In this document: positions 1,524-63,850 of the stretch, piece by piece
Numbering within the stretch: the stretch's first letter is position 1
Layout of the letters: each line of letters opens with the position of its first letter
From: Microglena sp. YARC
Taxonomy: Eukaryota > Chlorophyta > Chlorophyceae > Chlamydomonadales > Chlamydomonadaceae
NCBI GenBank assembly: GCA_022414725.1
Contig: CM039464.1
Location: 4,376,805 to 4,440,804 of the forward strand
DNA length: 64,000 nucleotides
Direction: 5' to 3'
Notes under the pieces: model-generated
Seen by the model: only the letters and a program-made list of their open reading frames with translations
Told to the model about the DNA's origin: nothing
Databases searched by the model: none
Translations under genes and position numbers: made by a program

Positions 1524-2285
1524 GTGAAGCACAGGGACAAGAACTGCATCACCTCCAGGGCATTCTCCCAGTCACTGCTCCTACAACTCAAGGTCCCCCC
1601 CACCCCCCCTGTACACGCACACCACCACCACTCACAACAGACTGCAACACCCCAGCACAGTAAACTAGCAACATCACCATGTAGGTAGCACGCGCTGCGA
1701 CACCTGTAAAGTACAGGGACAAGAACTGCATCACCTCCAGGGCATTCTCCCAGTCACTGCTCCTACAGCTCAAAGTGACCCCCCCCACACACACACACAC
1801 ACCCATCCCCCCCCCACCCCCCACCACACACACAGACCGCAACACCCCAGCACCGTCAGCAAGCAACAGCATGTAGGTAGCACGCGCACCTGTTTAAAAG
1901 GGACAGGAACTGCATTACCTCCAGGGCCTTCTTCCTGTCACTGCTCCTACAGCTCAAGGTGACCCCCCCACCCCCTCCACACACCTAACCACCCACAACC
2001 CCACCACACACCCAGACTGCAACCCCCAGCTCAGTCAGCACGCAACAGCATGTAGGTAGCACGCGCACCTGTTTAAAAAGGGACAGGAACTGCATCACTC
2101 CAGGGCCTTCATCCTGTCACTGCTCATACTGCTCAAGGTGACCCCCCCACACACCCCACCCACCCCACCCCACCCACCCCACACCCCAGATGTAGGGTAG
2201 CTCGCGCTGCGCACCTGTAAAGTACAGGGACAAGAACTGCATCACCTCCAGGGCATTCTCCAGTCACTGCTCCTACAGCTCAAAG
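1524..2285 (-). repeat. Five tandem copies of the 3' edge of the 2.4-kb exon with splice donor
   Basis: Five copies of about 65-75 bp start near 1524, 1707, 1888, 2067 and 2213. On the minus strand each repeats the last codons of the exon at 2407-2672 (Leu-Glu-Val-Met-Gln-Phe-Leu-Ser-Leu context) and its donor. The spacing is about 145-185 bp, filled with C-rich and CA-rich sequence. The donor dinucleotide varies; the copy at 1524 reads GC instead of GT. These could be alternative terminal exon pieces or non-functional intron repeats. Confidence 0.75.
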
Positions 2286-2406
2286 TGACCCCCCCACCCC
2301 CCCACACACAACACCATCCCCCCCCCCCACAACACACACCACACACACACAGGCCGCAACACCCCAGCAACGTCAGCATGCAACACCATATAAGTAGCGC
2401 ACGCAC

Positions 2407-2672
2407 CTGTGAAGCACAGCGACAAGAACTGCATCACCTCCAGGGCCTTCTTCCTGTCACTGCTCCTACAGCTCCATGTCAACCTCTTGCCCAGGAATCG
2501 CCTCAGCCACTTGGGTGGCGCTAGCTGGCTTAGCATCTCCTTTCTCTCCTCCTCACCAGGCTCCCCTCTGTCTGAAAAACACTCCCGAAGGTCCCAAGTT
2601 ACATACACTTCCACACGGTGTAACTTGTGAACAGCGTCCAGGGGACTTGAAGAGCTCTTGGTGATGTGCTTC
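2407..2672 (-). CDS. Internal exon of an unrecognised minus-strand protein
   Basis: An uninterrupted minus-strand frame is bounded by an acceptor (...CTCCTGCCAG before 2672) and a donor (CACAG|GTGCGTG after 2407). The 266-bp exon encodes about 88 residues: a KHITKSS start, an acidic GEPGEEERKEMLSQL stretch, a basic PPKWLRRFLGKRL stretch, and an amphipathic tail ALEVMQFLSLCFTG. I recognise no family. The tail is copied five times with its donor towards lower coordinates, and the head is copied once near 3018-3078. It is probably a late exon of the gene spread over 2.4-22.4 kb; assignment to one transcript is inferred from strand, order and shared architecture. Confidence 0.6.
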
Positions 2673-2685
2673 CTGGCAGGAGAAT

Positions 2686-2768
2686 AGAGTGAGTGTGTGT
2701 GTGTGTGTGGTGTGTGTAGAGTGTGAGTGTGTGTGTGTGTGTGGTGTGTGTGTGTGTGCTGTGTGTGT

Positions 2769-2799
<31 letters not shown>

Positions 2800-2858
2800 G
2801 GGGGGGAGGGGGGGGGGGGGGGGGGGTAGTTGGTATGAGTGTGTGAGTGAGCGTGTGA

Positions 2859-3017: not shown

Positions 3018-3078
3018 TAGAGTAACGGCATCCAGGGGACTTGCAGAGCTCTTGGTGATGTGCTTCCTGGCAGAAAGA
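3018..3078 (-). repeat. Copy of the 5' edge of the 2.4-kb exon
   Basis: About 50 bp nearly match the first codons of the exon at 2407-2672 (minus-strand GGAAGCACATCACCAAGAGC context). The acceptor-proximal bases are changed (CTTTCTGCCAG). It is the upstream counterpart of the five 3'-edge copies at 1524-2285. Confidence 0.7.
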
Positions 3079-3975: not shown

Positions 3976-4360
3976 CACATTACGCCAAACACTATCCCTA
4001 CGGCACAACCTGCTTCTAACAAGCTACTAACCTCACATAACCCCCACACACTTACCACACACACACTACGCCACACCCTAACCAACACCCACCCACCCAC
4101 ATACTACGGACACACCTGACAGCCTCACATTACCCCCACACACTTACCACGCACACGCTACTCCACACCCTAACCTGCAACCCACCACCCACATAGTACA
4201 AACACACCTGACGGCCTCTATGTCCTTTAGCAAGAGGAGGTGTGCGTGTAGGAGAGGGGGGGATAGTAGGTGTGGGGCAGTGTGTGTGTAAGAGGTGTGT
4301 GTGTGTGTGGTGGTGGTGGTGGTGGTGGGGGGGGGGGGGGGTACATACCACAACACACAC
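3976..4360. repeat. ACAC/CCACC repeats with 3'-edge copies of the 4.4-kb exon
   Basis: Degenerate CA-rich sequence contains a clear minus-strand copy of the 3' edge of the exon at 4361-4534 at about 4207-4241 (GACATAGAGGCCGTCAG|GTGTG). A weaker copy lies near 4112. A (TGG)n/G-run tract occupies about 4306-4341. No independent gene is seen. Confidence 0.7.
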
Positions 4361-4532
4361 CTGACGGCTTCTATGTCCTTCAGCAATTCGCTAGCATCGA
4401 TGAAGACAGCCTCCCACACAAAGGAAAGCTCGTCGGGTCCCATGAACACCTCGGTAGGAACCACGGTGAGACCCGCCTCCCATGCGCCCGTGGGTAGGGG
4501 GCAGGGGAAGTTATCCTTGGAGGCGTAGTTGA

Positions 4533-4534
<2 letters not shown>
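4361..4534 (-). CDS. Internal exon of an unrecognised minus-strand protein
   Basis: This 174-bp exon (58 codons) lies between acceptor ...CACACAG (before 4534) and donor GCCGTCAG|GTGTGTG (after 4361). It encodes a globular-looking segment with FNYASKDNFPCPLP at the start, VVPTEVFMGPDELSFVW in the middle, and FIDASELLKDIEAV at the end. I recognise no family. Base composition is balanced, in contrast to the GT and C-run sequence on both sides, which supports coding constraint. Three partial copies of its 5' edge lie upstream (4655-5098) and at least one 3'-edge copy lies downstream (4207-4241). Confidence 0.65.
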
Positions 4535-4591
<57 letters not shown>

Positions 4592-4654
4592 GGGGGGGGT
4601 TGAGGTTTGTGGGTTGAGGTTTATCAGCTGAAGTTTGTGGGCACTACAGTGTGA

Positions 4655-4718
4655 CCTGCCTCCGATGCACCGTGGGTAGGGGTCAGGGGAAGTTATCTTT
4701 GGAGGCGTAGTTGAACCT

Positions 4719-4749
<31 letters not shown>

Positions 4750-4881
4750 GAGATTTGTGGGTTTGTGGGTTGAGTTTATCAGCTGAGGTTTGTGGGCACT
4801 ACAGTGTGACCTGCCTCAGATGCACTGTGGGTAGGGGGCAGGGGAAGTTATCTTTGGAGGCGTAGTTAAACCTGTGTGTGT

Positions 4882-5569: not shown

Positions 5570-6348
5570 ACAAAAGCAAGCAACGACTCCTGTTTCAGCA
5601 TTAAGCAGCTGTTTTTGCTTCAAAACATCATCACCTCCCCCCCCACACCCACCCACCCCTCATCCCCCCATCCCCATACTTCTTCGCCAGGGCCTCCAAC
5701 CGCCACTCCAAATATATCATATCGATCGCACAACAAATTTGAAAACAACTCATAACATGAAAACAAAATTAACAAATTTGACAAAGGCAAACAAAGACTC
5801 ATGTTTCAGCATTAAGCAGCTGCTTTTACTTCAGAACATTATTTCCCCCATCCCCCCCCCTCCCCCCCCAATCTCCATACAGCTTCGCCAGGGCCTCCAA
5901 CCGCCACTCCAAATCTATAATATCGATTGAACAACAAAATTGAAAAATACTCAACAAAACATGAAAACAAACTTGACTAAAGCAAACAAAGACTCATGTT
6001 TCAGCATTAAGCAGCTGTTTTTGCTTGACAACATCATTCTCGTCCTCCTCCTCCTCCTCCTCCGCCTCATCTCCCTCCCCCGCGTCCACCTCAGCCTCAT
6101 CACCCTCCTCTGCGACCACCTCCGCCTCATCTCCCTCCCCCGCAACCACCTCAGCCTCATCTCCCTCCTCCGCCTCCTCCTCATCCCCAAACAGCTTCGC
6201 CAGGGCCTCTTGCTGAAACTCCATCTCCTCCATGCCCGCAAGCTCCGCACCAAGAATCACCCGCGCCTTGTCTAGCTCATGCTTCCCCTGGAGATAACAA
6301 CTCAACAGAACATGAAAACAAACTTGACAAAAGCAAACAATGACTCAC
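5570..6348 (-). repeat. Three copies of the 3' edge of the P-loop/acidic exon
   Basis: Minus-strand copies of the tail of the exon at 6349-7038 occur at about 5994-6305 (long, about 310 bp, including the acidic repeats), 5800-5850 and 5578-5630. All end in the LLNAET-type codons. The long copy has ATGAGT where the genuine exon has donor GTGAGT, so its splice donor is destroyed by one substitution. The downstream AT-rich sequence (AACAAATTTG, CAAAATTGAC) also repeats. Confidence 0.8.
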
Positions 6349-7038
6349 GTTTCAGCGTTCAGCAGCTGTTTTTGCTTGACAACATCATTCTCGTCCTCCT
6401 CCTCCTCCTCCGCCGCCTCATCTCCCTCCCCCGCGTCCACCTCAGCCTCATCACCCTCCTCCTCCTCCTCCTCCTCTGCCTCATCTCCCTCCCCCGCGTC
6501 CACCTCAGCCTCATCACCCTCCTCCTCCTCCTCCTCCGCCGCCTCATCTCCCTCCCCCGCGTCCACCTCAGCCTCATCACCCTCCTCCGCGACCACCTCC
6601 GCCTCATCTCCCTCCCCTGCAACCACCTCCGCCTCATCTCCCTCCTCCGCCTCCTCCTCTTCCCCAAACAGCTTTGCCAGGGCCTCTTGCTGACACTCCA
6701 TATCCTCCATGCCCGCAAGCTCCACACCAAGGATGACCCGCGCCTTGTCTAGCTCATCTTTCCCCTGGAGATAGTACAACGTCCCTAGGTCTTCGGACCC
6801 CCCCTGCTCCTGCAGCCACTGCTTCAGGTCAGCTTCATCCGGACAGTTGTTGAACATCACGGCGTTGGCAAAGGTGCTTTTAGAGCATCCTTCTGCACCC
6901 ATGAGGTACACTTCGTTGACCCGGGCAGGGAAGCGAATTTTGTCCACGCCCTTGAGGAAATGCTCAACTAGCTTGTGGACGTCATCATCACCGGCGCCTG
7001 TACACCCCCCACCAGCTCCAGGACTGTCGGTGATCTTC
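6349..7038 (-). CDS. Exon with degenerate P-loop and long acidic repeat tract
   Basis: This 690-bp exon lies between acceptor GCTCACAG (before 7038) and donor GAAAC|GTGAGTC (after 6349). It is the longest exon of the minus-strand set. Near residue 45-60 it carries MGAEGCSKSTFANAV, which fits a Walker A-like GxxGxxKST pattern, but Cys-Ser sits where Gly usually precedes Lys, so nucleotide binding is uncertain. An amphipathic helical region (ELDKARVILGVELAGM, QQEALAKLFG) follows, then about 90 residues of GEGDEAEV-type acidic repeats encoded by a GAG/GCG minisatellite, ending VVKQKQLLNAET. I do not recognise the family. The acidic tract is likely to vary in length. Edge copies flank it on both sides. 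Confidence 0.7.
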
Positions 7039-7420
7039 CTGTGAGCGCAGTGGTGGTGGTGGTGGTGGTGGTGGTGGTGATTGGTGTGGGAGGGGGCCGT
7101 TAGAGTGTCAGTGACAGCGGTCACTAGCTCGTGGAACGTCATCATCGCCGACACCTGTGGGACCGCCACCAGCATCAGGACTGTTGGCAATCTTCCTGTG
7201 AGTGCGGGTGGTGGTGGTGGTGTGGTGGTGTGTGTTTGTGTGTGGGTGGTGGGTGAGGTGGTGGTGGTGATTGTGTGTGGGAGGTGGTGGTGTGTGGGAG
7301 GTGGGGTGAGGTGGTGGTGGTGATTGAGGTGGTGTTAAGGAATCTTGTCCACGCCCTTGTGGAAGTGCTCTACCAGCTTGTGGACGTCATCATCACCGGC
7401 GCCTGTACACCCGCCATCAT
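7039..7420 (-). repeat. Two copies of the 5' part of the P-loop exon, plus TGG microsatellites
   Basis: A copy at about 7120-7203 repeats acceptor CTCACAG and the first codons of the exon at 6349-7038 (GGAAGATTGCC versus GGAAGATCACC in the exon). A second at about 7330-7415 repeats the HKLVEHF-type segment just inside the exon. (GTG)n runs at 7050-7080 and 7207-7335 separate them. Confidence 0.75.
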
Positions 7421-7625: not shown

Positions 7626-8589
7626 CGATCGTCACTTACTTGAGCCAAGCCCCAGGTTTTCATAGACCTGACCCAGCAGTCGATCATCTGTTGGGTCACA
7701 ATCCCCCCCCCCACACACACACACACACACACAGGACACACATGCCTCCCCCCCCCCCCCACACACACACACACACACACGACACACATGCCTCCCACCC
7801 CCACCCCCCCCCCCCCACACACACACACACACACACACACACATGCCTCCCCCCCCCACCACCACACACACACACACGACACACATGCCTCCCCCCCCCC
7901 CCACCACACACACACACACGACACATATGCCTCCCCCCCCCACACACACACACACACACACACACACGACACACATGCCTCCCCCCCACCCCCACCCCAC
8001 CCCCACACACACGACACACATGCCTCCCCCCCCCCCCACCCCCACACACACACACACACACGACACACATGCCTCCCCCCAGCAGTCGATCATCGGTTGG
8101 GTCACAAACCCCCCCCCCTCCACACACACACGATTGTCACTTATTTGAGCCGAGCCCCCGGGTGTTCACAGACCAGATCCAGCAGTGGATCATCCGTTGG
8201 GTCACGATCCCCCCCCCTCCACCCAACACCCAACACCACCCCGGATACAAATCCCCCTACACACACAAACGACACACATCTCCCCCCCACACACACACCC
8301 GATCGTCACTTACTTGAGCCGTGCCCCCAGGTGTTCACAGACCAGGCCCAGCAGTCGATCGTCCGTTGGTTCACGCCCCCACACACACACACACCCACAC
8401 ACACACCCACAAACACACAGACACACACACGCACGCACACACACACGATCGTCACTTACTTGAGCCTTGCCCCCAGGTGTTCACAGACCAGGCCCAGCTG
8501 TAGATCGTCCGTTGGTTCACACACACCCCCACACACACCCACACACACATACACACACACGCACGCACACACACACGATCGTCACTTAC
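7626..8589 (-). repeat. Five copies of the 3' edge of the 8.6-kb exon with GTAAGT-type donors
   Basis: Copies of about 72-79 bp lie at about 7626-7702, 8080-8110 (partial), 8131-8209, 8301-8373 and 8450-8522. Minus-strand reading gives the exon's last codons (DPTDERLLGLVCEHLG-like) and, in full copies, a donor of the GTAAGTGACG form; the copy at 8131 has ATAAGT. Between copies lie CACACA/C-run blocks, including a subarray with repeated ACACACATGCCTCCCCCC (7735-8080). Confidence 0.85.
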
Positions 8590-8874
8590 TTAAGCCGTGC
8601 CCCCAGGTGTTCACAGACCAGGCCCAGCAGTCGTTCGTCCGTTGGGTCACGATCTAGGACACCCATCCATGTATACGGCTCCTCCTCTTCCACTTCCTGC
8701 TGCTCCTCCTCCTTGACCTCACCCTCCACCCTGCCCTCCTCCTGCTGCTCCCCATCATGAAGGGGGGGTCCAAGCCTGGGCTTCTTCACGAACACTGACT
8801 CCGACTCGTCGATGAACTCGCCGTATGTTGAATAGCGTTTTTGGCGTACGACTGTTACACTGCCACGCGCCTCC
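8590..8874 (-). CDS. Internal exon with Glu-rich segment, unrecognised protein
   Basis: This 285-bp exon (95 codons) begins after GGTGGCAAG and ends at an excellent donor, CTTAA|GTAAGTGACG. It encodes a basic start (GSVTVVRQKRYSTYGEF), then IDESESVFVKKPRLGPP, an acidic region rich in EEE/QQE, and a C-terminal globular-looking part YTWMGVLDRDPTDERLLGL. I recognise no family. The low-complexity Glu run may be a linker. The 3' edge is copied five times downstream (7626-8522) and the 5' edge twice upstream (9163-9320). The acceptor in the two upstream copies, GGCCAG, is closer to consensus than the exon's own GGCAAG. Confidence 0.65.
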
Positions 8875-9150: not shown

Positions 9151-9162
9151 GGATAGGAAGAG

Positions 9163-9320
9163 TAGCGTTTTTGGCGTACGACTGTTACACTGCCACACGC
9201 ATCCCTGGCCACCACAAGACAGACATGTAATTGTTATCAGTGTATGAAGAGATTTGATAGGGAGAATAGCGTATTTGGCGTACGACTGTTACACTGCCAC
9301 GCGCCTCCCTGGCCATCATA
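9163..9320 (-). repeat. Two copies of the 5' edge of the 8.6-kb exon with acceptor
   Basis: Copies at about 9163-9215 and 9267-9320 carry the minus-strand acceptor GGTGGCCAG or GATGGCCAG and the first codons (GTGTAACAGTCGTACGCC). They are separated by GTATGAAGAGAT.TGATAGG sequence also present beside the exon. Confidence 0.8.
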
Positions 9321-9436: not shown

Positions 9437-11405
9437 GCTACTTTCAGCTACTAGCAATGCCCCTGATGTTTATTTCAGCTACTTTCAGCTACTAGCAATG
9501 CCCCTGATGCAACTATCAGCTACTAGCAATGCCCCTGATGCAACTATCAGCTACTAGCAATGCCCCTAATGCAACTATCAGCTACTAGCAATGCCCCTGA
9601 TGCAACTATCAGCTACTAGCAATGCCCCTGATGCAACTATCAGCTACTAGCAATGCCCCTGATGCAACTATCAGCTACTAGCAATGCCCCTAATGCAACT
9701 ATCAGCTACTAGCAATGCCCCTGATGCAACTATCAGCTACTAGCAATGCCCCTAATGCAACTATCAGCTACTAGCAATGCCCCTAATGCAACTATCAGCT
9801 ACTAGCAATGCCCCTAATGCAACTATCAGCTACTAGCAATGCCCCTGATGCAACTATCAGCTACTAGCAATGCCCCTGATGCAACTATCAGCTACTAGAA
9901 ATGCCCCTAATGCAACTAGCAGCTACTAGCAATGCCCCTGATGCAACTATCAGCTACTAGCAATGCCCCTAATGCAACTAGCAGCTACTAGCAATGCCCC
10001 TAATGCAGCTAGCAGCTACTAGCAATGCCCCTGATGCCCCTAATGTTTGTTTAGCTACTTCAGCTACTAGCATGCCCCTGATGCAACTATCAGCTACTAG
10101 CAATGCCCCTGATGCAACTGCCAATCAGCTACTTAGCAATGCCCCTGATGTTTGTTCCAGCTACTTTCAGCTACTAGCAATGCCCCTGATGCAACTATCA
10201 GCTACTAGCAATGCCCCTAATGCAACCATCAGCTACTAGCAATGCCCCTAATGCAACTAGCAGCTACTAGCAATGCCCCTGATGCCCCTAATGTTTGTTT
10301 CAGCTACTTTCAGCTACAAGCAATGCCCCCGATGCAACTATCAGCTACTAGCAATGCCCCTGATGCAACTATCAGCTACTAGCGATGCCCCTGATGCCCC
10401 TGATGTTTGTTTCAGCTACTTTCAGCTACTGGCGATGCCCCTGATGTTTATTTCAGCTACTTTCAGCTACTAGCCATGTCCCTGATACAACTTTCAGCTA
10501 CTAGCAATACCCCTGATGTTTATTTCAGCTACTTTCAGCTACTAGCAATGCCCCTGATGCAACTATCAGCTACTAGCAATGCCCCTAATGCAACTATCAG
10601 CTACTAGCATTGCCCCTGATGTTTGTTCCAGCTACTTTCAGCTACTAGCAATGCCCCTGATGCAACTATCAGCTACTAGCAATGCCCCTAATGCAACTAT
10701 CAGCTACTAGCAATGCCCCTTATGCAACTAGCAGCTACTAGCAATGCCCCTGATGCCCCTAATGTTTGTTTCAGCTACTTTCAGCTACTAGCCATGTCCC
10801 TGATACAACTTTCAGCTACTAGCAATGCCCCTGATGTTTATTTCAGCTACTTTCAGCTACTAGCAATGCCCCTGATGCAACTATCAGCTACTAGCAATGC
10901 CCCTGATGCAACTATCAGCTACTAGCAATGCCCCTGATGCAACTATCAGCTACTAGCAATGCCCTTAATGCAACTATCAGCTACTAGCAATGCCCCTGAT
11001 GCAACTATCAGCTACTAGCAATGCCCCTGATGCAACTATCAGCTACTAGCAATGCCCCTGATGCAACTATCAGCTACTAGCAATGCCCCTGATGCAACTA
11101 TCAGCTACTAGCAATGCCCCTGATGCAACTATCAGCTACTAGCAATGCCCTTAATGCAACTATCAGCTATTAGCAATGCCCCTTATGCAACTATCAGCTA
11201 CTAGCAATGCCCCTGATGCAACTATCAGCTACTAGCAATGCCCCTAATGCAACTAGCAGCTATAGCAATTGCCCCTGATGCCCTAATGTTTGTTTCAGCT
11301 ACTTTCAGCTACAAGCAATGCCCCTGATGCAACTATCAGCAACTAGCAATGCCCCTGATCCCCCTGATGTTTGTTTCAGCTACTTTCAGCTACTAGCAAT
11401 GCCCC
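9437..11405. repeat. 31-bp minisatellite, about 55 units
   Basis: The unit is CAGCTACTAGCAATGCCCCT followed by GATGCAACTAT. A longer variant with GTTTATTTCAGCTACTTT is interspersed at irregular intervals, giving a two-level organisation. Many copies differ only by GAT versus AAT. No coding constraint is visible. Confidence 0.95.
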
Positions 11406-12811
11406 TCCAATGAGGTAGGGTGAAAGGCGCTTGTAAATCCCTTCCCGTGCCCTACCCTCTCATTGTAGCCAATGTCTATGCTCTCACTGCTGGTGCCCGT
11501 TCTACTCAGTCACTGCTACACTACCCCACTCTCTTCCCATGCCCCACCTTGCCACCCCCCTCTCATTGGGGTCATATCCACACTCCCACTGCTGGTGCTA
11601 GTGCTAGTGCTATTCTATCACTGCCACACTGCCACTACCCCACTCCCTTCCCATGCCCCACCTTGCCACCCCCCTCTCATTGTAGCCAATGTCCACACTC
11701 CCACTGCTGGTGCTAGTGCTAGTGCTATTCTATCACTGCCACACTGCCACTACCCCACTCTCTTCCCATGCCCTACCTTGCCACCCCCCTCTCATAGGGG
11801 TCAATGTCCACACTCCCACTGCTGGTGCTAGTGCTAGTGCTATTCTATCACTGCCACACTGCCACTACCCCACTCTCTTCCCATGCCCTACCTTGCCACC
11901 CCCCTCTCATTGGGGTCAATGTCCACACTCCCACTGCTGGTGCTAGTGCTAGTGCTATTCTATCACTGCCACACTGCCACTACCCCACTCCCTTCCCATG
12001 CCCTACCTTGCCACCCCCCTCTCATTGGGGTCAATGTCCACACTCCCACTGCTGGTGCTAGTGCTAGTGCTATTCTATCACTGCCACACTGCCACTACCC
12101 CACTCCCTTCCCATGCCCTACCTTGCCACCCCCCTCTCATTGGGGTCAATGTCCACACTCCCACTGCTGGTGCTAGTGCTAGTGCTATTCTATCACTGCC
12201 ACACTGCCACTACCCCACTCCCTTCCCATGCCCTACCTTGCCACCCCCCTCTCATTGGGGTCAATGTCCACACTCCCACTGCCGGTGCTAGTGCTAGTGC
12301 TATTCTATCACTGCCACACTGCCACTACCCCACTCCCTTCCCACACCTTACCTTGCCACCACCCTTTCATTGCGACCAATGTCCATGCTCCCAGCAGCAC
12401 GCAACTCCCCAAGTGGAACCCCATGGCCCCCGATGTTCAGCGTGTTCTCATCAAACTCAGAGGCTGTATTAATTGTTTTTTCAATTTCAAAGCACTAGCA
12501 GTGGGAGTATGGATACAGTTTTTTCAGCTACTTTCAGGTACTTCCAGCTACTAGCAATGTCCCAGATGCAATGAGGTAGGGTGATTGGCGCTTTTAACTC
12601 CCTTCCCATGCCCTACCCTTTCATTGTAGCCAATGTCCATACTCCCAGTGCTGGTGCTAGTGCTACTCTGGAACTGCTACACTACCCCACTACCTTCCCA
12701 TCCCCTACCTTGCCACCACTATTTCATTGCGACCAATGTCCATGCTCCCACTGCTAGTGCTGGTGCTACACTGTCACTACAACACTACCCCACTCCCTTC
12801 CCATGCCCTAC
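11406..12811 (-). repeat. 115-bp array made of the 3' edge of the 12.8-kb exon plus intron
   Basis: Seven near-identical 115-bp units run from about 11,530 to 12,360; longer, more diverged copies lie at 11,406-11,530, 12,360-12,475 and 12,590-12,811. On the minus strand every unit contains the exon's last codons, the donor (GGCAAG|GTAGGGCATGGG) and about 70 bp of intron. The copy at 12,360-12,475 extends further into exon sequence. A short run of the 31-bp repeat reappears near 12,520. Confidence 0.9.
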
Positions 12812-13034
12812 CTTGCCACCACTCTCTCATTGCCACCAATGTCCATGCTCCCAGCAGCACGCAGCTCCATAAGTGGAACCCCATGGCCCTCGATGTTCAG
12901 CATGTGCTCATCGAACTCAGAGGCTGTCTTCTCGGACTGTGTCTGGTAGTTTGGCTCAGTTTGGGACTTTACCTTGGCAAACTTGCCCTCGCAATATGTG
13001 AGCCATAGGCTCTGAGTAGGCTCAACCAGCTCTC
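12812..13034 (-). CDS. Internal exon of an unrecognised minus-strand protein
   Basis: This 223-bp exon lies between acceptor CACTTGTAG (before 13034) and donor GGCAAG|GTAGGGC (after 12812). It encodes ELVEPTQSLWLTYCEGKF, then a hydrophilic middle, and HMLNIEGHGVPLMEL ending in an SMDIGGNERVVAR-like tail. I recognise no domain. Composition and absence of stops contrast with the flanking arrays. Its 3' edge seeds the 115-bp array downstream (11,406-12,811) and its 5' edge is repeated about ten times upstream (13,240-14,725). Confidence 0.65.
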
Positions 13035-13943
13035 CTACAAGTGTTGAGAAAAATTGTCTGAGAAGCTGGCACTTTCGGTTTTTGTTTGGGGGGTGTGTGG
13101 GGAGGGGGGGGGCTGAAGTTGGGCTGTGTGGGGCGCAGGACCACGGCCACCAAGCTACTTCTGGTAAGCCTGCACGCATGATGGCGTGACCCACACTCTT
13201 GACAATAGGAGAGGAGGGGGGGGGGGGGGGGGGGGCAATTTAAGCATAGGCTCTGAGTAGGCTCAACCAGATGCCTTGCAAGTGTTGAGAAAATAGGTCT
13301 GAGAAGCTGGCACTCTTTCTGATGAATTTTGTATGCTTTGGGGCCAACTGCCCTGCAAGTGTTGAGAAAATCTGGCAGTTAAGCACAGTGTGGGACTTTA
13401 CCTGGGCAAACCTGCCCTCACAATATGTCAGCCAAAGGCTCTGAGCAGGCTCAACCAACTGTCCTGCAAGTGTTGAGAAAATTGATAGTTTGGCGCAGGG
13501 CGGGACTTCGCCTGGTCAAACTAGCCCTTACAGTATGTGAGCCATAGGCTCTGAGTAGGTTCAACCAGCTCTTCTACAAGTGTTAAGAAAAATTGTCTGC
13601 GAAGCTGGCACTTTCGGTTTTTATTGGGGGGGGGGGGCATTTTAGCCATAGGCACTGAGTAGGCTCAACCAGCTCTCCTACAAGTGTTAAGAAAAATTGT
13701 ATGAGAAGCTGGCACTTTCGGTTTTTGTTTTGGGGGGAGGGGGAGGGGGGGGGGGGGGGGGGGGGGGGGGGCATTTTTAGCCATAAGCTCTGAGTAGGCT
13801 CAACCAGCTGCCCTGCAAGTGTTGATAATATAGGTCTGAGATTCTGGCACTCTTTCTGTTGATTTTTAATGTTTTGGGGCATCTCAGGCATAGGCTCTGA
13901 GTAGGCACAACCAGCTGCCCTACAAGTGCCAAGAAAAAAAAAA

Positions 13944-14028
13944 CATGACTGGAGGGGCGTGGTATTCAGGGGACCCTCCTGAACGCCGCAGCTGGGGAAA
14001 TTCACCATGGCAGACATAGCCAGGGTCC
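13944..14028 (-). mobile_element. SINE fragment (3' tail shared with other SINEs in the window)
   Basis: On the minus strand it reads CATGGTGAATTTCCCCAGC, a GC-rich body, then GAATACCACGCCCCTCCAG. The tail motif TACCACGCCCC...CAGG is shared with the elements at 46,951-47,150, 58,060-58,260 and 61,545-61,680; the body CATGG...CCCAGCTGCGGCG is shared with 61,545-61,680. The 5' head is missing or has expanded into the adjoining minisatellite. Confidence 0.6.
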
Positions 14029-14450
14029 ATGAATGGCAGACATAGCGAGGGTTGATGAATGGCAGACATAGCCAGGGTTGATGAATGGCAGACATAGCCA
14101 GGGTTCATGAATGGCAGACATAGCCAGGGTTCGTGAATGGCAGACATAGCCAGGGTTGATGAATGGCAGACATAGCCAGGGTTCATGAATGGCAGACATA
14201 GCCAGGGTCCATAAATGGCAGACATAGCGAGGGTTGATGAATGGCAGACATAGCCAGGGTTGATGAATGGCAGACATAGCCAGGGTTGATGAATGGCAGA
14301 CATAGCCAGGGTTCATGAATGGCAGACATAGCCAGGGTTCATGAATGGCAGACATAGCCAGGGTTGATGAATGGCAGACATAGCCAGGGTTCATGAATGG
14401 CAGACATAGCCAGGGTTGATGAATGGCAGACATAGCCAGGGTTGATAAAA
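14028..14450. repeat. 26-bp minisatellite, about 16 copies
   Basis: The unit GAATGGCAGACATAGCCAGG plus GTTGAT or GTTCAT repeats with little divergence. The first part, ATGGCAGACATAGC, is also present as a single copy next to the SINE at 61,610, so this array probably grew from SINE body sequence. Confidence 0.9.
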
Positions 14451-14934
14451 TAGGTCAGAGATTCTGGCACTCTTTCTGTTGATTTTTAATGTTTTGGGGT
14501 ATGTCAGCCATAGGCTCTGAGTAGGCTCAACCAGCTGTCCTGCAAGTGTTGAGAAAATTGATAGTTTGGCGCAGGGCGGGACTTCGCCTGGTCAAACTAG
14601 CCCTCACAATGTGTCAGCCATAGGCTCTGAGTAGGCTCAACCAGCTGCCTTGCAAGTTTGGATAGATATCTTTATGAGACGCTGTCTCTTTCTGCTGATT
14701 TTGTATGCTTTGGGGCATGTCAGCCATAAGCTCTACATAGGCTCTGCGAGTGCTAATTACATCCGGTAGTTTGGCGCAGTGTGGTATTTATTATTGAATT
14801 AATATGTTTGCCTTGTTTCACCCAAAAAGTTTGGACCCCTTTAACATGCTCAGTGTAGGCGCAACCAGACTACCAACTACTACCGCCCTGCAAGTGTCAA
14901 AATAATAATATAATAATAATATAATTCAGCAAAG

Positions 14935-15194
14935 AGCAGAGGGCTTGGTTGGCAGCCAAGGGGAATTGAGAGAGTATCTGCACCTAGGGCCTAACACACA
15001 GGCGCTCCACAATTGACCCACTGTCGAGAATGGGGGAGACCTCAAATATAGAAACCAAGCTCTCCACACTGGGCTTGAACAGCACCACTTGGATGTGCAG
15101 GAAAGAGCAGAGGGCTTGGTTGGCAGGCAAGGGGAATTCAGAGACATTATTGGAATCTAGGGCCTAACACACATGTGCTTTACAACAGACCCAC
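14935..15194 (-). repeat. Two copies of the 3' edge of the 15.2-kb exon with GTGGGT donor
   Basis: Copies at about 14,935-15,070 (with donor GACA|GTGGGTCAATTG) and 15,080-15,180 repeat the LCSFLHIQVVLFKPS-type coding tail of the exon at 15,195-15,477. Confidence 0.7.
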
Positions 15195-15477
15195 CGTTGA
15201 GAATGGGGGAGAACTCATAGATTGCAAACAAGCTCTCCACACTGGGCTTGAATAGCACCACTTGGATGTGCAGGAAAGAGCAGAGGGCTTGGATTGCTGC
15301 CAAGGGGAAGTCATCGGCATTATTGGAATCTAGGGCTTTACACACATGCTCCTTCAAATCTATTTCGCTCAAGTGCGCGAGGAGATCCGGGCACAGGCTA
15401 GGATGGTGAGCCTGGTCGACAGGCAAGGATAGCCGAACACTGGCAAGAATGGCCGGGGCATCGGTCTCCAAAAGATT
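15195..15477 (-). CDS. Internal exon, unrecognised (possible OTU-like strand-helix pattern, weak)
   Basis: This 283-bp exon lies between acceptor GTCGTTTCAG (before 15,477) and donor CTCAACG|GTGGGTC (after 15,195). It encodes NLLETDAPAILASVRLSLP, an HHPSLCPDLLAHLSEIDLK helix region, then DDFPLAAIQALCSFLHIQVV and LFKPSVESLFAIYEFSPIL. The pattern 'A..ALC.FL.I.VVLF' resembles the helix-strand unit of OTU-type cysteine proteases, but no catalytic Cys or His box is visible in this exon, so I do not assign function. The 5' edge is copied six times upstream and the 3' edge twice downstream. Confidence 0.65.
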
Positions 15478-15584
15478 CTGAAACGACAGGATTGGGCAAA
15501 GGTGGTGGTTGGTTGTGGTTGGTGGGGGGGGTCATGGGTAGGTGGGGGGGAGATTGAGATTGGATTGAGTAGGGGTTGTAGTAC

Positions 15585-16735
15585 AAGTGCGCCAGGTGAT
15601 CCGGGCACAGGCTAGGATGGTGAGCCTGGTCGACAGGCAAGGATAGCCGAACACTGGCAAGAACGGCCGGGGCATCGGTCTCCAAAGATTCTGAAAACGA
15701 CAGGGATTGGGCAAAGGTGGTGGTTGGTGGTTGGTGGGGGGGGTCATGGTAGGTGGGGGGAGGATTGAGATTGGGATTGGGTAGGGTTGTAGTACGAGTG
15801 CGCAAGATGTGGCTGGTCGTTTAGAACACATGCAAGGATAGCTGGACACTGGCAAGAATAGCTGGGGCGTTGGTCTATAGAAGATTCTGAAACGACAGGG
15901 ATTGGGCGAAGGTGGTGGGAGGTGGTGGTTGGTGGGAGGTGAGGGGTGGTTGCTTGGAGGTGGTGGGTGGGTGGGGGAGGATTGAGATTGGGTTGGGGTT
16001 GTAGTGCAAGTGTGCCAGGAGATCCGGGCACAGGCTAGGATGGTGTGCCTGGTCGACAGGCAAGGATAGTCTAACACTGGCAAGAACAGCCGGGGCATCG
16101 GTCTCCAGAAGATTCTGAAACGACAGGGATTGGGCAAAGGTGGTGGAAGGTGGGAGGTGGTGATTGGTGCTAGGTGTGGGGGTGGTTGATGGGAGATGGG
16201 GGGAGGATTAAGATTGGGATTAGGTAGGGGTTGGGGTTGTAGTACAAGTGCGCAATTTGTGGCTGGTCGTTTAGAGCACATGCAAGGATAGCTGGACAAC
16301 TGGGAAGAATAGCCAAGGTGTCAGTCTCCAAAAGATTCTGAAACGACAGGATTGGTCGAAGGTGTGGGAGTGGTGGTTGGTGAGAGGTGGGGGGAGGTGG
16401 GGGGAGGATTGGGATTGGGTAGGGGTTGGGGTTGTAGTACAAGTGCGCAATATGTGGCTGGTCGTTTAGAAAACATGCAAGGATAGCCGGACACTGGCAA
16501 GGATAGCCGGGCATCTGTCTCCAGAGGATTCTGAAACGACAGGGATTGGGCGAAGGTGGTGGAGGTGGAAGGTGGGAGGTGGTGGGAGGTGTGGGGGTGG
16601 TGGGGGGTCATGGATGTGTGTGGGGGGGGGGGGGGGGGGGGGTAGTACAAAGTGCGCAATATGGGAGGTTGTTTAGAACACATGCAAGGATAGCCTGGCA
16701 TCAGTCTCCAGAAGATTCTGAAACAACAGGGATTG
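15585..16735 (-). repeat. Six tandem copies of the 5' edge of the 15.2-kb exon with acceptor
   Basis: Copies near 15,585-15,690, 15,815-15,900, 16,010-16,120, 16,245-16,345, 16,450-16,540 and 16,660-16,730 repeat the minus-strand acceptor (TGTCGTTTCAG or TGTTGTTTCAG) and the first codons, alternating two coding variants (GTCGACCAGGCTCACC versus AACGACCAGCCAC). Period is about 220-230 bp. The intron part of each unit is a GGTGGTGGGAGGT-type G-rich strand. Confidence 0.85.
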
Positions 16736-17560: not shown

Positions 17561-18094
17561 TTAACACAACAAACTCAACACAACAAAACGCAACAGAATA
17601 GAACAAAACGCAACACAACACAGAAAAACAAGCGCACCTGAATCAGCTTGAGAGACAGAAGAACAGACAGAACACAACAGGCGCAACATAACACATCACA
17701 CAAGAACAGGCGCACCTTAACCAGCTTCAGACACATAAGAACAAACACAACACAACCAACACAACAAAACGCAACATGACGCAACACAGCACAACACAAC
17801 AAGGAAGATCAGGCGCCCCTTGATCAGCTTGAGACAAATAAGAACAAACACAACACAACCAACACAACAGAACGCAACAAAACAAACACACAGAAGAACA
17901 GACGCACCTTAATCAGATTGAGACACAGAAGAACAAACATCACACAACAAAGCGCAACACAACACAATGCAACACAACAGACCAGAACACAGAAGAACCG
18001 ACGCACCTTAACCAGCTTGAGAGACAGAAGAACAGACAGAACATAACAAACGCAACAAAACACAACAGAACAGAACACAGAAGAACAGACGCAC
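17560..18094 (-). repeat. Five copies of the 3' edge of the 18.1-kb exon with GTGCGTC-type donors
   Basis: Copies near 17,633, 17,709, 17,811, 17,905 and 18,004 repeat minus-strand CTCAAGCTGGTTAAG|GTGCG or close variants; the first has CAG|GTGCG and the third AAG|GGGCG. They are spaced about 76-102 bp apart by AACACAACA-type sequence. Confidence 0.8.
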
Positions 18095-18140
18095 CTTAAT
18101 CAGCTTTAGAGTCAACTTCTGCAGGTTTGCCGACAGCACC
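18095..18140 (-). CDS. Short internal exon (46 bp)
   Basis: A minus-strand segment between acceptor TTTCATAG (before 18,140) and donor GATTAAG|GTGCGTC (after 18,095) encodes about 15 residues, VLSANLQKLTLKLIK. It is too short for family assignment. Support comes from clean splice signals and from the five tandem copies of its 3' edge, the same arrangement as its neighbours. Confidence 0.5.
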
Positions 18141-18950: not shown

Positions 18951-19436
18951 GTTAAGGTTTGGTTTTAGGTCTGGATTTGAATTTGGATTTGCATTCGGGG
19001 TTGGGTTGGGTTGGGATTGGGATGGGTTGGCTTGGGTTGGATACTCACTTTGTTCCCCACAGAGGTTCACATATGGCAGCTACTAGTTAGGTTAAGGTCA
19101 GGATTTAGATATGAATTCGGGTTTGGGTTGGGTTGGGTTGGGTTGGGTTAATGGGTTGGGTTGGGTTGGGTTGGATACTCGCTTTGTTTCCCACAGCACT
19201 TCACAGCAGGCGGCTACGACTCCATACACAGCCCTTGGTAAGGTTTAAGTTTGGATTTGGATTTGGATTTACATCCGGGGTTGGGTTGGGTAGGATACTC
19301 ACTTTGTTCCCCACAGCAGTTCACAGAAGGCGGCTACTACTCCTGACACTACCCTCGGTGAGGTCTGGGTTTGGATTTGGAGATACATTCGGGGTTGGGT
19401 TGGGTTGGTTTAGGTTAGGTTGAGTTGCATACTCAC
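18950..19436 (-). repeat. Three copies of the 3' edge of the 19.5-kb exon with GTGAGTATCC donor
   Basis: Copies near 19,042-19,083, 19,172-19,215 and 19,293-19,340 repeat minus-strand AACTGCTGTGGGGAACAAA (or close variants) plus GTGAGTATCC. Each is followed by (TTGGG)n and GGATTTGGATTT sequence. Period is about 120-130 bp. Confidence 0.85.
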
Positions 19437-19569
19437 TTTGTTCCCCACAGCAGTTCACAGAAGGCGGCTACAACTCCTGACACTACCCTTGTTTGCCTGG
19501 GGGCCAGGGTGGATAGTTGCGAAAGGTACCGGGCCCTTGCGAACTCTTTCCAATCCTGGATGGCGAAGC
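19437..19569 (-). CDS. Internal exon of an unrecognised minus-strand protein
   Basis: This 133-bp exon ends at the strong donor GGGGAACAAA|GTGAGTATGC. The probable acceptor is GCGTCAAG before 19,569. It encodes about 44 residues including FAIQDWKEFARARYLSQL and VVSGVVAAFCELLWGTK. I recognise no family. Two copies of the 5' edge lie upstream, and three copies of the tail plus donor lie downstream. The start is the least certain point; in the upstream copies the equivalent site reads CTTAG. Confidence 0.6.
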
Positions 19570-19950
19570 CTTGACGCACGCCCTCCCTGCGACATGGTTC
19601 AGTTTGTGCGATGGAGGGTTTCAATATGATTGTTTGTGTGCCATGGAGCATTTCAATACCATTGACTGTGTGGGATGAAGTGCTTTTGAACATGTGGATG
19701 GGAAGATAAGGGAGGGCACTTCCATGAGGTGCCTGGACCTTGAAAACTCTTCCCAATCCTGGATGACTAAGCCTTGACGCACGCCCTCCCTGCAATTTCA
19801 TCCAATGTGTGCCATTGGGTATTTCAATACCATTGACTGTGTGAGATAAAGAGCTATTGAACAAATAGATGGGAACATAAGGGAGGGCACTTATATGCGT
19901 TGCCTGGACCTTCAAAACTCTTTCCAATCCTGGATGACTAAGCTAAAAAA
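19570..19950 (-). repeat. Two copies of the 5' edge of the 19.5-kb exon in a 165-bp duplication
   Basis: Copies near 19,725-19,790 and 19,905-19,945 repeat minus-strand CTTAGTCATCCAGGATTGG and following codons. The spacer (TGACTGTGT, TTTCAATACCATTG) is duplicated too, giving a unit of about 165-175 bp. Confidence 0.75.
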
Positions 19951-21572: not shown

Positions 21573-22237
21573 ATTCTCACTCACCCCTCTTCAAGAGTGC
21601 CCACCAATGTAATGTAATACACGACATGATACAATGTAATGTATTATATTCTCACTCACCCCTCTTCAAGAGTACCCACCAATGTAATGTAATACACAAC
21701 ATGATACAATGTAATGTATTATATTCTCACTCACCCCTCTTCAAGAGTGCCCACCAATGTAATGTAATATACAACATGATACAACGTAATGTATTATATT
21801 CTCACTCACCCCTCTTCAAGAGTGCCCACCAATGTAATGTAATACACAACATGATACAATGTAATGTATTATATTCTCACTCAGCCCTCTTCAAGAGTGC
21901 CCACCAATGTAATGTAATACACAACATGATACAATGTAATGTATTATATTCTCACTCACCCCTCTTCAAGAGTGCCCACCAATGCAATGTAATACACAAC
22001 ATGATACAATGTAATGTATTATATTCTCACTCACCCCTCTTCAAGAGTGCCCAGCAAGTGTGAGCTCCTCACATCGTTGCGATTCACATCAGATATTGCC
22101 TCATGCACCTTCACCTCCTTTCTCACTCACCCCTCATCAAGAGTGCCCACCAATGTCATGTAATGTAAGACGGAATAGAATACGATGCAATGGAATGTAC
22201 AACATGACACAATGTAATGTATTATATTCTCACTCAC
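21573..22237 (-). repeat. About 76-bp array from the 3' edge of the 22.2-kb exon with GTGAGTGAG donor
   Basis: Copies near 21,573, 21,648, 21,724, 21,799, 21,875, 21,950 and 22,026 each repeat minus-strand CACTCTTGAAGAGGGGTGAG plus about 50 bp of AT-rich intron (ATGTAATGTATTATATT). The copy at 22,029-22,128 includes about 60 bp more of exon sequence. Confidence 0.9.
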
Positions 22238-22388
22238 CCCTCTTCAAGAGTGCCTAGCAAGTGTGAGCTCCTCACATCGTTGCGGTTCACATCGGATATT
22301 GGCTCATGCACCTTCACCTCCTTTCTCAGCTTTATCAGCACGTCTTTCAACTTTTCATCAGACTCTGCCCAATCGGTACCACAGAGAC
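22238..22388 (-). CDS. Internal exon of an unrecognised minus-strand protein
   Basis: This 151-bp exon lies between acceptor CTTGGGCAG (before 22,388) and donor GAAGAGGG|GTGAGTG (after 22,238). It encodes LCGTDWAESDEKLKDVLIKL, RKEVKVHEPISDVNRND and a SSHLLGTLEEG-like tail, a mostly helical hydrophilic segment. I recognise no family. It is the most upstream exon I can define in the minus-strand set. Its 3' edge forms the 76-bp array downstream and its 5' edge is repeated about nine times upstream. Confidence 0.65.
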
Positions 22389-39248: not shown

Positions 39249-39253
39249 TAGCT

Positions 39254-52939: not shown

Positions 52940-53129
52940 GCCTAGCATTCCCCCCCTCTTTCTTTCTCTTGATACCCCATCACTTAGCCAAGCCTGCTGT
53001 CCTGTACATGCTCCTTACTCCTACACCTTTCCCCCAGTCCCCCTTTACACTCCTTTCCTTTACTTAGTGGGACTGATTTATATATCCTGAGGGCACGTGT
53101 GTGTGAAATTGCAGTGACTCTTGCATATG

Positions 53130-56500: not shown

Positions 56501-56664
56501 CAGTGACTCAATGTCCAGCAAGCAGGCCCCCAACTTTTGCAAATATAAGTTACTGACAATGATGAAGCCTGCATGTGTGCTTATTTCCTCAACCCTTAAG
56601 GGTAAATTATATGTATTGGAAATATGAAAAGCAACTGTAAGGAATCTGAGTCAACCGTCTGAAT
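53536..56664 (+). mobile_element. DIRS-like element, tandem copy 2
   Basis: Colinear with copy 1 and very similar. Most visible differences are one-base indels, many in short homopolymers (for example CTCCGCG versus CTCCCGCG, CCTTTGC versus CCTTTTGC). The recombinase C-terminal part (55,826-56,062) is broken after ANGADL by inserted T residues. The RNase H-like region (54,786-55,030) is likewise broken. Confidence 0.85.
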
Positions 56665-61510: not shown

Positions 61511-61544
61511 AAACAAAGAGAGCTAAAAAAAAAAAGATAAAAAA

Positions 61545-61680
61545 GATAACGCCTGGAGGGGCGTGAGTGTTAAGGGGACCCTCCCGTCGCCGCAGCTGGG
61601 GAGAGTCACCATGGCAGACATAGCTAAGTGTCACCCTCCAGGCGGGAGGACTCACACAGAGAGCTACTGTACCACTTGTT
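61545..61680 (-). mobile_element. SINE fragment sharing the 3' tail of the tRNA-derived SINEs
   Basis: Minus strand: GCTATGTCTGCCATGGTGAC, CCCCAGCTGCGGCGACGG, GTCCCCTTAACACTCACGCC, CCTCCAGGCGTTATC. The tail matches SINE copies 1 and 2. The body matches the fragment at 13,944-14,028 but not copies 1 and 2, so it is a second subfamily with the same tail. Confidence 0.65.
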
Positions 61681-61699
61681 GGTATTAGAGTACCAGGGC

Positions 61700-63222
61700 T
61701 CCAGTTCATCAGTGGGCTGTTTCGTTTTCAGCCCTCCTATCACGGTTGGGCAAGTCCCTTCAGCCTAGTTGGCCTACCCATGGGCTGTAACAACATGCAC
61801 ACACCAACCTGTTGGGTTTCAGAGAAACAGGGATCCAAGTTCACCAAAAGTGATTTTTGGAGGAGCCCCCCCTTCTGGGGGGGCAGGAGCCCAGATCACC
61901 CGTTGTCTGTCTATTTAGCCTATTTGGCTCACCGCTGGTCTTTAACAACACACAAACACCAACCTGTTGGGTTTCAGAGAACCAAGGCCTCCACGCTCAT
62001 CAGTATTCTTTTGGCGGAGCTCCCCCTTCTGGAAGGCGGGAGCACCTAGAGTCACCCCGTTGTCTGTCTGTTTAGCCTATTTGGCCCACTGCTGGTCTGT
62101 AAAACACACATACGCTAACCTGTTTGGTTTCAGAGAACCAAGGCCTCCGAGTTCATCAGTGCTTTTTCGTTTTAAGCCTCTCCTGTCACAGTTGGGCAAG
62201 CCCTTTTAGTCTATTTGGCCTACCCTGGACTGCCACCAACAACATACGCTAAACTGTTTGGGTTTCAGAGAACCAGGGCCTCCCCAGAGCACCAGTGCTG
62301 TTTTCGTTTTCAGCCCCTCCTATCACGGTTGGGCAAGTCCTTCAGCTAGTTGGCCTCACCCATGGGCTGTAACAACATGCACACACCAACCTGTTCGGTT
62401 TCAGAGAACCAGGGCCTCCAACTTCACCAGTGCTTTTGGAGGAGCTCCCCCCTTCTGGGGGGCGGGAGCCCCAGAATCACCCCGTTGTCTGTCTATTTAG
62501 CCTATTTGGCTCACGCTGGTCTTTAACAACAATGCACACACAACCTGTTGGGTTCAGAGACCAGGAACTCCAAGAGCACCAGTGCTTTTTGGAGGAGCCC
62601 CCCCTTCTGGGGGCAGGAGCCCCCAGAGTCACCCCGTTGTCTGTCTATTTAGCCTATTTGGCTCACCGCTGGTCTTTAACAACACACAAACACCAACCTG
62701 TTGGTTTCAGAGAACAAGGCCTAAAAACGCTCATCAGTATTCTTTTGGCGGAGCTCCCCCTTCTGGAAGGCGGGAGCCCCCAGAGTCACCCCGTTGTCTG
62801 TCTGTTTAGCCTATTGGCATTCGCTGGTCTGTAACAACACCACATATACCAACCTGCTGGGTTTCGAGACAAGGCCTCCAAGTTCACCATTGCTTTTTCG
62901 TTTTAAGCCTCTCCTGTCACGGTTGGGCAAGCCCTTTTAGTCTATTTGGCCTACCCCTGGACTATAACAACATACACACACCAACCTGATGGGTTTCAGA
63001 GAACCAAGCCCTCCAAGCTTCAGTCTGCTGCAGAGGAAGCTTCGAAGAGATATCAGCAAGCTCTACCAACTACCTTCGGTATTAGTACAGCGCCTAACTA
63101 CTCATGCTGCCATTCATGCTATGCCCTACATGCCTTGATTGAATCTCACCCAACCTCCTCCCCCACCCCCCCAGCCACACACAGCCACCCCGCTGGACTG
63201 TAACAAGATACATACACGTAAC
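61700..63222 (-). repeat. Nine copies of the 3' edge of the carboxypeptidase exon, fused with R1
   Basis: Copies near 61,806, 61,962, 62,118, 62,253, 62,390, 62,541, 62,696, 62,851 and 62,980 repeat minus-strand CTTGGAGGCCTTGGTTCTCT, GAAACCCAACAG|GTTGGTGTG, that is the exon's last codons plus a donor. The rest of each unit (about 140-156 bp) is reverse-orientation R1 or its CTTTTGG(A/C)GGAGC variant. The repeat edge therefore falls at the same place as in the minus-strand exon field. Confidence 0.85.
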
Positions 63223-63354
63223 CTTGCTGGGTTTCGGAGAACCAAGGCCTCCAAGCTTCGGTTTGCTCGAGAGGTAGCTTCGCGATCCAGCGCCGGGTAC
63301 CTACTACTGGCACGATGCCATCCACATCACCAGAATACACCAGCATGCGCAGGT
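63223..63354 (-). CDS. Serine carboxypeptidase (peptidase S10) exon with catalytic Asp region
   Basis: This 132-bp exon lies between acceptor TTTCTACAG (before 63,354) and donor CAGCAAG|GTTACGTG (after 63,223). It encodes LRMLVYSGDVDGIVPVVGTR, RWIAKLPL, then TEAWRPWFSETQQ. YSGDxDxIVPxxGxRxWI followed by W.PW is the signature around the catalytic Asp of the Ser-Asp-His triad in serine carboxypeptidases, secreted or vacuolar enzymes that remove C-terminal residues. Only this one exon is recognised; the Ser and His exons are not in view. A serine carboxypeptidase-like acyltransferase cannot be excluded. Strand and flanking edge copies match the other exons. Confidence 0.8.
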
Positions 63355-63850
63355 CTGTAGAAATGGTGGTGATGGTGATGGTGATGGTAGTGGGTATGGG
63401 GAAGGTGGATAGTGTGGTGTCTATGCCATCCTCATCACCAGAATACACCAGCATGCGCAGGTTTGTAGAAGTGGTGGTGATGGTGATGGTAGTGGGTATG
63501 GGGAAGGTGGTGGTAGTGGGGAAGGTGAGGGTAGTGGTGGTGGGTATGGTGATGGTAGTGGTGGTGGATATGGTGGAGGAGGTTGTGGATAGTGTGGTGT
63601 TGATGCAATCCACAACACCATATTACACCAGCATGCACAGGACTGTGGAGGTGGTGGTGATGGTGATGGTAGTGGGTAAGCGGAAGGTGGTGGTAGTGGG
63701 CATGGGAAAGGTGAGGGTAGTGGTGGTGGGCATGGTGATCGTGATGGTAGTGGTGGTGGGTATGGTGGAGGAGGATGTTGTGGATAGTGTGGTGTTGATG
63801 CAATCCACATCACCATATTACACCAGCATGCGCAGTTTTGTGATGGTAGA
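63355..63850 (-). repeat. Three copies of the 5' edge of the carboxypeptidase exon
   Basis: Copies near 63,420-63,462, 63,600-63,650 and 63,790-63,840 repeat the CGCATGCTGGTGTA(T/A)TCTGGTGATGAGG-type start of the catalytic Asp exon, with acceptors TCCACAG, CTACAA and ATCACAA, so only one keeps AG. The filler is (GGTGAT)n/GGTAGTGGTGG. Period is about 115-190 bp. Confidence 0.8.

Follow-up and report, generated by a model that had tools for sequence, protein, structure and literature searches.

The window gene and the loci sampled

The window analysed here is a stretch of 64,000 nucleotides (G000:C3:4376805-4440804) from a genome of 568,105,699 bp assembled in 2,390 contigs. Introns of its genes hold arrays of copies of the edges of the exons that they adjoin, and it is these edge copies, termed acceptor-edge when they carry the start of an exon and donor-edge when they carry its end, that we describe here. 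A reading made from the letters of the window (the sequence-only reading) had pointed to such arrays at ten exons, near 2.4, 4.4, 6.3, 8.6, 12.8, 15.2, 18.1, 19.4, 22.2 and 63.2 kb; edge copies were found at all ten. These exons lie on the minus strand. Nine of them belong to one gene (the window gene), which extends past the low end of the window and whose eight joins are GT-AG and phase-consistent (six in phase 2, one in phase 0 and one in phase 1). The gene has no match in Pfam. It is matched by the EukProt models P0001-P0003, P0003 agreeing with both borders of exon E12, and a search with P0002 as the query found only P0002 itself among the 7,998 scored candidates, those having most words in common with it. 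An open stretch at 16860-17000 (near 16.9 kb), between exons E18 and E15, is a candidate further exon. A paralogue with identical exon borders lies on scaffold C2 at ~7.989-8.012 Mb. The tenth exon, near 63.2 kb, is that of a serine carboxypeptidase (Peptidase_S10). Comparison of the whole window with Rfam gave nothing at gathering scores.

Six gene loci with 51 exons in all entered the main screen: the window gene (four of its 13 exons lie beyond the window), its paralogue, CCT6, CCT4, CCT1a and CCT1b. With the locus of the S10 exon this makes seven loci, which are spread over four scaffolds (C1, C2, C3 and C5). The CCT genes come from a search of the genome for the CCT chaperonin family that gave 64 matches, from which four loci were taken, each fitting in one stretch. 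Their subunit names are presumed from the sequences; CCT6 is also the name borne by the database relatives of that gene. The CCT6 protein is 75-77% identical to the CCT6 of Myrmecia, Chlamydomonas sp. UWO 241, Sanguina and Haematococcus, and EukProt model P0005 is 99% identical to the CCT6 of this genome; from the CCT6 identities we take the host for a chlorophyte green alga. Exons were compared with up to 4 kb of flank on each side (by blastn at E<1e-3 for the window-gene exons), and the thresholds of a published screen for avian exon stuttering were applied to 45 introns. The reference set consisted of 14 random 10-kb loci of C1, which look mostly transposon-like as judged by their long open frames.

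Exon edges are copied into the adjoining introns

The two-sided arrangement claimed in the sequence-only reading, with acceptor-side copies upstream of the exon and donor-side copies downstream, recurs in the loci screened. Among the 51 exons there are 78 acceptor-edge copies upstream and 83 donor-edge copies downstream; the other matches are 25 interior ones and a single acceptor-edge copy downstream, with no donor-edge copy upstream. No whole-exon copy was found in the flanks of these exons. The window gene has 37 acceptor-edge copies (upstream only), 48 donor-edge copies (downstream only) and 13 interior matches, the 25 CCT exons have 34 acceptor-edge copies upstream, 32 donor-edge copies downstream, four interior matches and none on the wrong side, and the paralogue has seven acceptor-edge, three donor-edge and eight interior matches together with the one acceptor-type match on the wrong side. 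That match comes from the last exon of the P0002 model (paralogue locus L021, 4004-4311), which could in fact be a copy, on the acceptor side, of a longer true exon starting near 4004; the single wrong-side match would then disappear. Eight of the nine window-gene exons inside the window have acceptor-edge copies upstream as well as donor-edge copies downstream. The ninth, E18, is only 46 bp long and gave no match at E<1e-3; a query made of its last 30 bases and 12 intron bases, run at a laxer threshold with masking off, recovered five copies on the donor side, 82-93% identical to it.

Of the 51 exons, 36 have one or more edge copies; 53 of the 102 exon sides are affected, with a median of two and a maximum of 11 copies per affected side. 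The exon part of the copies has a median length of 56 bases (range 16-180), and 70 of 82 donor copies and 58 of 78 acceptor copies extend into intron sequence. Copies are mostly 70-98% identical to their exon, a few short ones reaching 100%. Coordinates in the window are given in Table 1.

The copies are local. Exons matched their own flanks in 58 of 102 pairs, whereas none of 612 non-homologous exon-flank pairs gave a match; nine matches were obtained in 102 pairs when paralogues were allowed in the control. At the thresholds of the avian screen 104 matches were found in adjacent introns, none in the other introns of the same gene and none in shuffled introns. Twenty-six of the 45 introns were positive by this screen (window gene 12/12, paralogue 1/12, CCT6 3/6, CCT1a 4/4, CCT4 3/6 and CCT1b 3/5), so that every screened locus except the paralogue has at least half of its introns positive. 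The effect is thus found in unrelated genes (the window gene and its paralogue, the two CCT1 genes, CCT4, CCT6 and the S10 gene), on C1, C2, C3 and C5. As the sequence-only reading had also stated, the filler of the arrays differs between exons and no single transposon family accounts for them. Spread of a transposon or introner family was ruled out because each copy is found only by its own exon (0/612 unrelated pairs, no distal matches).

Table 1. Exons of the window and the copies of their edges (window coordinates).
Feature	Positions	Strand	Basis or remark
Exon E22, window gene	22238..22388	-	conserved in C2 paralogue
E22 donor-edge copies, 6 matches	21584..22125	-	exon-versus-flank comparison
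E22 acceptor-edge copies, 4 matches	22451..23659	-	exon-versus-flank comparison
Exon E19	19437..19586	-	conserved in paralogue
E19 donor-edge copies, 3 matches	19048..19355	-	exon-versus-flank comparison
E19, one acceptor-edge and one interior copy	19726..19943	-	exon-versus-flank comparison
Exon E18, 46 bp	18095..18140	-	
E18 donor-edge copies, 5 matches	17627..18026	-	query of exon tail plus intron start
Exon E15	15195..15477	-	
E15, one donor-edge and one interior copy	14924..15175	-	exon-versus-flank comparison
E15 acceptor-edge copies, 6 matches	15583..16718	-	exon-versus-flank comparison
Exon E12	12812..13034	-	P0003 model, both borders
E12 donor-edge copies, 11 matches, 103- to 115-bp units	11453..12750	-	
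E12 acceptor-edge copies, 8 matches	13244..14646	-	
Exon E8	8590..8874	-	
E8 donor-side copies, 3 edge matches and 2 ending short of the border	7650..8520	-	
E8 acceptor-edge copies, 2 matches	9159..9308	-	
Exon E6, with its own in-frame 63-bp and 30-bp repeats	6349..7038	-	
E6 donor-edge copies, 3 matches	5591..6038	-	
E6, one acceptor-edge and one interior copy	7122..7419	-	
Exon E4	4361..4534	-	
E4 donor-edge copy	4207..4233	-	
E4 acceptor-edge copies, 2 matches	4637..4872	-	
Exon E2	2407..2672	-	
E2 donor-side copies, 3 edge matches and 2 ending 11 bases before the border	1521..2281	-	
E2 acceptor-edge copy	3023..3065	-	
Peptidase_S10 exon	63223..63354	-	
S10 exon donor-edge copies, 5 matches	61965..63044	-	
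S10 exon acceptor-edge copies, 3 matches	63423..63835	-	
Intron-only array, 31-bp unit, ~57 copies, no exon match	9481..11281	.	

Intron composition and growth

Local direct repeats make up 0.88 of the intron bases of the window gene, 0.38 in the paralogue, 0.54 in CCT6, 0.71 in CCT1a, 0.71 in CCT4 and 0.75 in CCT1b, compared to a median of 0.19 (mean 0.26, range 0-1.0) in the 14 random loci. The footprint of the arrays that bear a junction is 0.57, 0.18, 0.48, 0.62, 0.40 and 0.61 of the intron bases in the same order of genes. The proposal that the arrays are built on exon edges therefore stands for a large share of the intron DNA, but arrays free of exon sequence are present too, among them those at 9481-11281, 14007-14446 and 17062-17557. 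Intron growth, a consequence foreseen in the sequence-only reading, is supported by the comparison of ten introns for which both flanking exons were located in both paralogues: the window gene has the longer intron in nine cases, by a factor of 2.2-11.5, and the shorter one in the tenth. The stretch between E19 and E15, which is also longer in the paralogue, was excluded from this comparison since E18 was not located there.

Runs of at least eight G or C are frequent in these introns (2.02 per kb in the window gene, 1.16 in the paralogue, 1.56 in CCT6, 0.76 in CCT1a and 2.04 in CCT1b, compared to 0.31 in the random loci), the exception being CCT4 with the lower value of 0.15. Motifs resembling G-quadruplexes (G4-like) occur 2.16, 2.78, 3.12, 1.27, 1.62 and 3.91 times per kb of intron in the window gene, the paralogue, CCT6, CCT1a, CCT4 and CCT1b, respectively, and 0.61 times per kb in the random loci. 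For these two sets of figures, and for the unit lengths, whole-exon expectation, CCT1 exon 3 copy counts and intron GC content given below, exon 6 of CCT1a was started at a decoy acceptor and exon 3b of CCT1b was absent. G/C runs and G4-like motifs are a possible trigger of array formation; the relation is a correlation only.

A probable local duplication process blind to gene structure

We consider it probable that the arrays result from intense local tandem duplication that is blind to gene structure and is tolerated while the mRNA remains intact. Gene regions would often undergo local tandem duplication, each event copying some tens to a few hundred bases irrespective of exons and introns. 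A duplication crossing one junction would keep the full exon, and the extra half-exon with its splice site would fall in the intron, a donor half-exon downstream and an acceptor half-exon upstream, both to be spliced out. As the mRNA would not be altered, such copies would be tolerated through a presumed selective filter, and could later increase in number and be replaced through unequal exchange or conversion between units of one array. The initial events might be unequal crossing over, or might arise at G/C runs and G4-like tracts where replication slips or is under stress. From the geometry, a tandem duplication that crosses one junction would force the polarity of the copies, so the two-sided arrangement is automatic and offers no clue to the mechanism.

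The sequence-only reading had favoured a process aimed at splice junctions, which the counts do not bear out. Repeats span 44 of 98 junctions where 36.5 are expected from the rate at random intron points, and 37 of the 94 array families contain no junction, so junctions are not the sole substrate. Spanning is uneven between genes: repeats span 20 of the 26 junctions of the window gene, where the intron rate is 0.44, and two of the 13 of CCT4, where it is 0.48. The unit lengths of 40 junction families divide evenly over the three classes modulo 3 (12/14/14), showing no reading-frame bias. Tandem repeats within exons, found in four of the 51 exons (eight overlapping rows), all have periods divisible by 3, which is consistent with the same duplication also taking place in exons as long as the reading frame is preserved. 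Exon E6 contains at 6394-6659 an in-frame Glu/Asp-rich repeat of 63-bp and 30-bp units, and here the same process may have acted within coding sequence where this was tolerated.

Several results weigh against the explanation by blind duplication. Fifty-seven of the 94 families include a junction where 40.3 (standard deviation 3.9) are expected, and among the repeats of at least 90% identity the figures are 21 of 46 and 12.3 (standard deviation 2.7), the null of uniform placement being crude and exon-bearing copies remaining detectable longer. Only 0.6 whole-exon copies are expected, with a probability of 0.51 of finding none; their lack is therefore uninformative and does not demonstrate a selective filter, and we do not sustain the claim that selection removed them. 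The paralogue, with copies in only one of 12 introns at the strict screen, is a further point on this side. As to generality, the choice of compact loci may bias the CCT sample, and seven loci are few for a claim on the whole genome. It appears rather unlikely to us that introns throughout the 568 Mb have grown chiefly by junction amplification, partly aimed at junctions by transcription- or splicing-coupled breaks, with most exons amid near-perfect half-exon decoys rejected by exon definition.

The excess of junction families, at all identities and at 90% or above, together with that of spanned junctions, is what would be expected if transcription, R-loops or the splicing machinery caused breaks or template switching at exon borders and so amplified junctions preferentially. 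This excess falls within error when masking is off (12 of 43 families compared to 9.5, standard deviation 2.5) and is small in the test at random intron points. Furthermore, the numbers of copies on the donor and the acceptor side are similar (83 and 78), and many arrays lack any exon part. We judge such a junction-directed origin unlikely, and read these figures as requiring no junction-directed process while being compatible with a modest preference.

Age, turnover and decoy splice sites

Some arrays are common to the two paralogues. Eight exon edges have copies in both, and the breakpoint inside the exon is common within two bases in four of them (EN donor 148/147, EN acceptor 58/60, E19 acceptor 63/63-64, E6 acceptor 72/74), the other four breakpoints being at least seven bases apart. 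Copies of E19 and EK in the paralogue are closer to the copies in the window gene (0.82-0.84) than to their own exon (0.71-0.79), which suggests, from sequence similarity, that these duplications are older than the duplication of the gene. For most of the remaining copies the nearest sequence is their own exon or another copy (up to 1.0), and copies within the window gene reach 0.99-1.0 to one another. Exon 3 has four acceptor-side and no donor-side copies in CCT1a, and six donor-side and no acceptor-side copies in CCT1b. The two CCT1 genes (L042 and L044, respectively) also differ in introns, one after DDLR being present only in CCT1a and one after SSKITG only in CCT1b.

Of the 82 donor copies 62 retain the donor dinucleotide, and of the 78 acceptor copies 59 retain the AG; a perfect match to the real site is seen over positions -3 to +6 in 32 donors and over -5 to +1 in 28 acceptors. 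In copies that reach the intron, retention of the donor GT is 0.79, the same as the mean of the other positions (0.79), and that of the AG is 0.84 for a mean of 0.72 (other positions span 0.47-0.86). The splice dinucleotides thus decay like their neighbours, giving no clear sign of selection that removes or keeps decoys. The spliceosome would presumably ignore half-exon decoys by exon definition. Decoys may also spoil gene prediction, as two EukProt models appear damaged at such sites: P0001 opens with residues resembling those of the E8 decoy donor copy near 7650, and P0005 is missing, from the end of CCT6 exon 4, 24 residues that its relatives retain.

The perfect match of 32 of the 82 decoy donors to the real donor over nine positions, and the arrays that seem to predate a gene duplication, could be explained if arrays were maintained for a function, as alternative or recursive splice sites or as decoys that tune splicing. 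Retention of the donor dinucleotides no better than that of their neighbours, and the fact that exon 3 carries its array on one side in CCT1a and on the other in CCT1b, make such a function very unlikely.

The assembly contains small indel errors, seen as frameshifts in CCT6 and in the paralogue, and the noisy second copy of an element at 51-57 kb also raises the question of false copies made by long-read errors or stutter. Such copies should be near-identical to the exon, whereas most are 70-98% identical; breakpoints are common to paralogues on different scaffolds; and what seem to be decoy-copy residues stand at the start of EukProt P0001, whose sequence differs slightly from the assembly. 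We therefore regard an artefact as extremely improbable. Mistaken exon calls, with copies that would be true alternative exons or parts of a decaying gene, are hardly credible either: the window gene lacks a Pfam match, but its exons and borders are conserved in the paralogue, the CCT genes show the same pattern, and the CCT6 exons, once joined, share 76-87% identity with four database relatives and 99% with the EukProt model.

Other features of the window

The element mentioned above is present twice at 50400-57000, its second copy differing by many small indels as in unpolished long reads. One of its frames is reminiscent of what we take to be a tyrosine recombinase; the two pieces tested had no Pfam match. 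Copia-type long terminal repeat elements occupy 25800-43000 on both strands, with gag pre-integrase, rve and SH3 in one frame, and this region has few local tandem repeats.

Comparison with known systems

The sequence-only reading had regarded the pattern as undescribed. It is matched by the "mirages" of amphioxus (PMC3087553) and by avian exon stuttering (Hron et al. 2026; PMC12954441), and is of the same kind in those features that were tested. Amphioxus mirages are units (150-160 bp in the globin genes) with an exon edge, a splice signal and intron sequence; they show 81-100% identity and concerted evolution, and AG/GT is kept in many of them, not in all (PMC3087553). RT-PCR (reverse transcription PCR) points to normal splicing, and haplotypes differ in copy number (PMC3087553). 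The algal arrays are alike in unit size, in combining edge, splice site and intron, and in affecting 5' and 3' boundaries. Unlike mirages, reported from a few genes (PMC3087553), they are found in half or more of the introns of five of six loci.

Avian exon stuttering also concerns repetitive introns through which the lateral part of an exon and the adjacent donor or acceptor have been copied. The exon part measures 20-187 bp with a median of 36 in birds (PMC12954441), compared to 16-180 and 56 in the alga, where a different search was used. More than 90% of the chicken sources lie within one base of the border (PMC12954441); in the alga 60 of 104 do so and 84 of 104 lie within ten bases, a difference to be read with the fact that short matches can end at a mismatch. 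On chicken dot chromosomes 190 of 5,572 annotated introns (3.4%) score (PMC12954441), a frequency only roughly comparable with the 26 of 45 found in our small sample of genes. Large variation of intron length within a species is another feature of avian stuttering (PMC12954441). Its authors link exon stuttering to GC-rich microchromosomes and add GC-rich genes of the gerbil as data not shown (PMC12954441). The algal loci are not of this type, as their scaffolds measure 46-195 Mb and the GC content of their introns is 0.47-0.53. In the potato RdRp gene a tandem duplication over an intron-exon boundary made a new intron (PMC4974935); existing introns grow in the alga, in which no new intron is proved. 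No report of exon-edge arrays in algae or plants was found in the open-licence literature searched, and the available parts of PMC11228838 and PMC8226300 contain nothing on them. What is new here is the lineage, the frequency, and the ordinary GC content and scaffold size.

Significance

The introns sampled in this alga, including those of housekeeping genes, have grown largely by copying their own borders and not by transposons. Known so far from amphioxus and from bird microchromosomes, the pattern is now seen in a green alga whose GC content is ordinary and whose chromosomes are large, which argues against a requirement for GC-rich microchromosomes. The decoy donors identical to the real site over nine bases provide a natural test of how the spliceosome chooses between identical sites, and the arrays that bear decoys are a ready substrate for intron gain.

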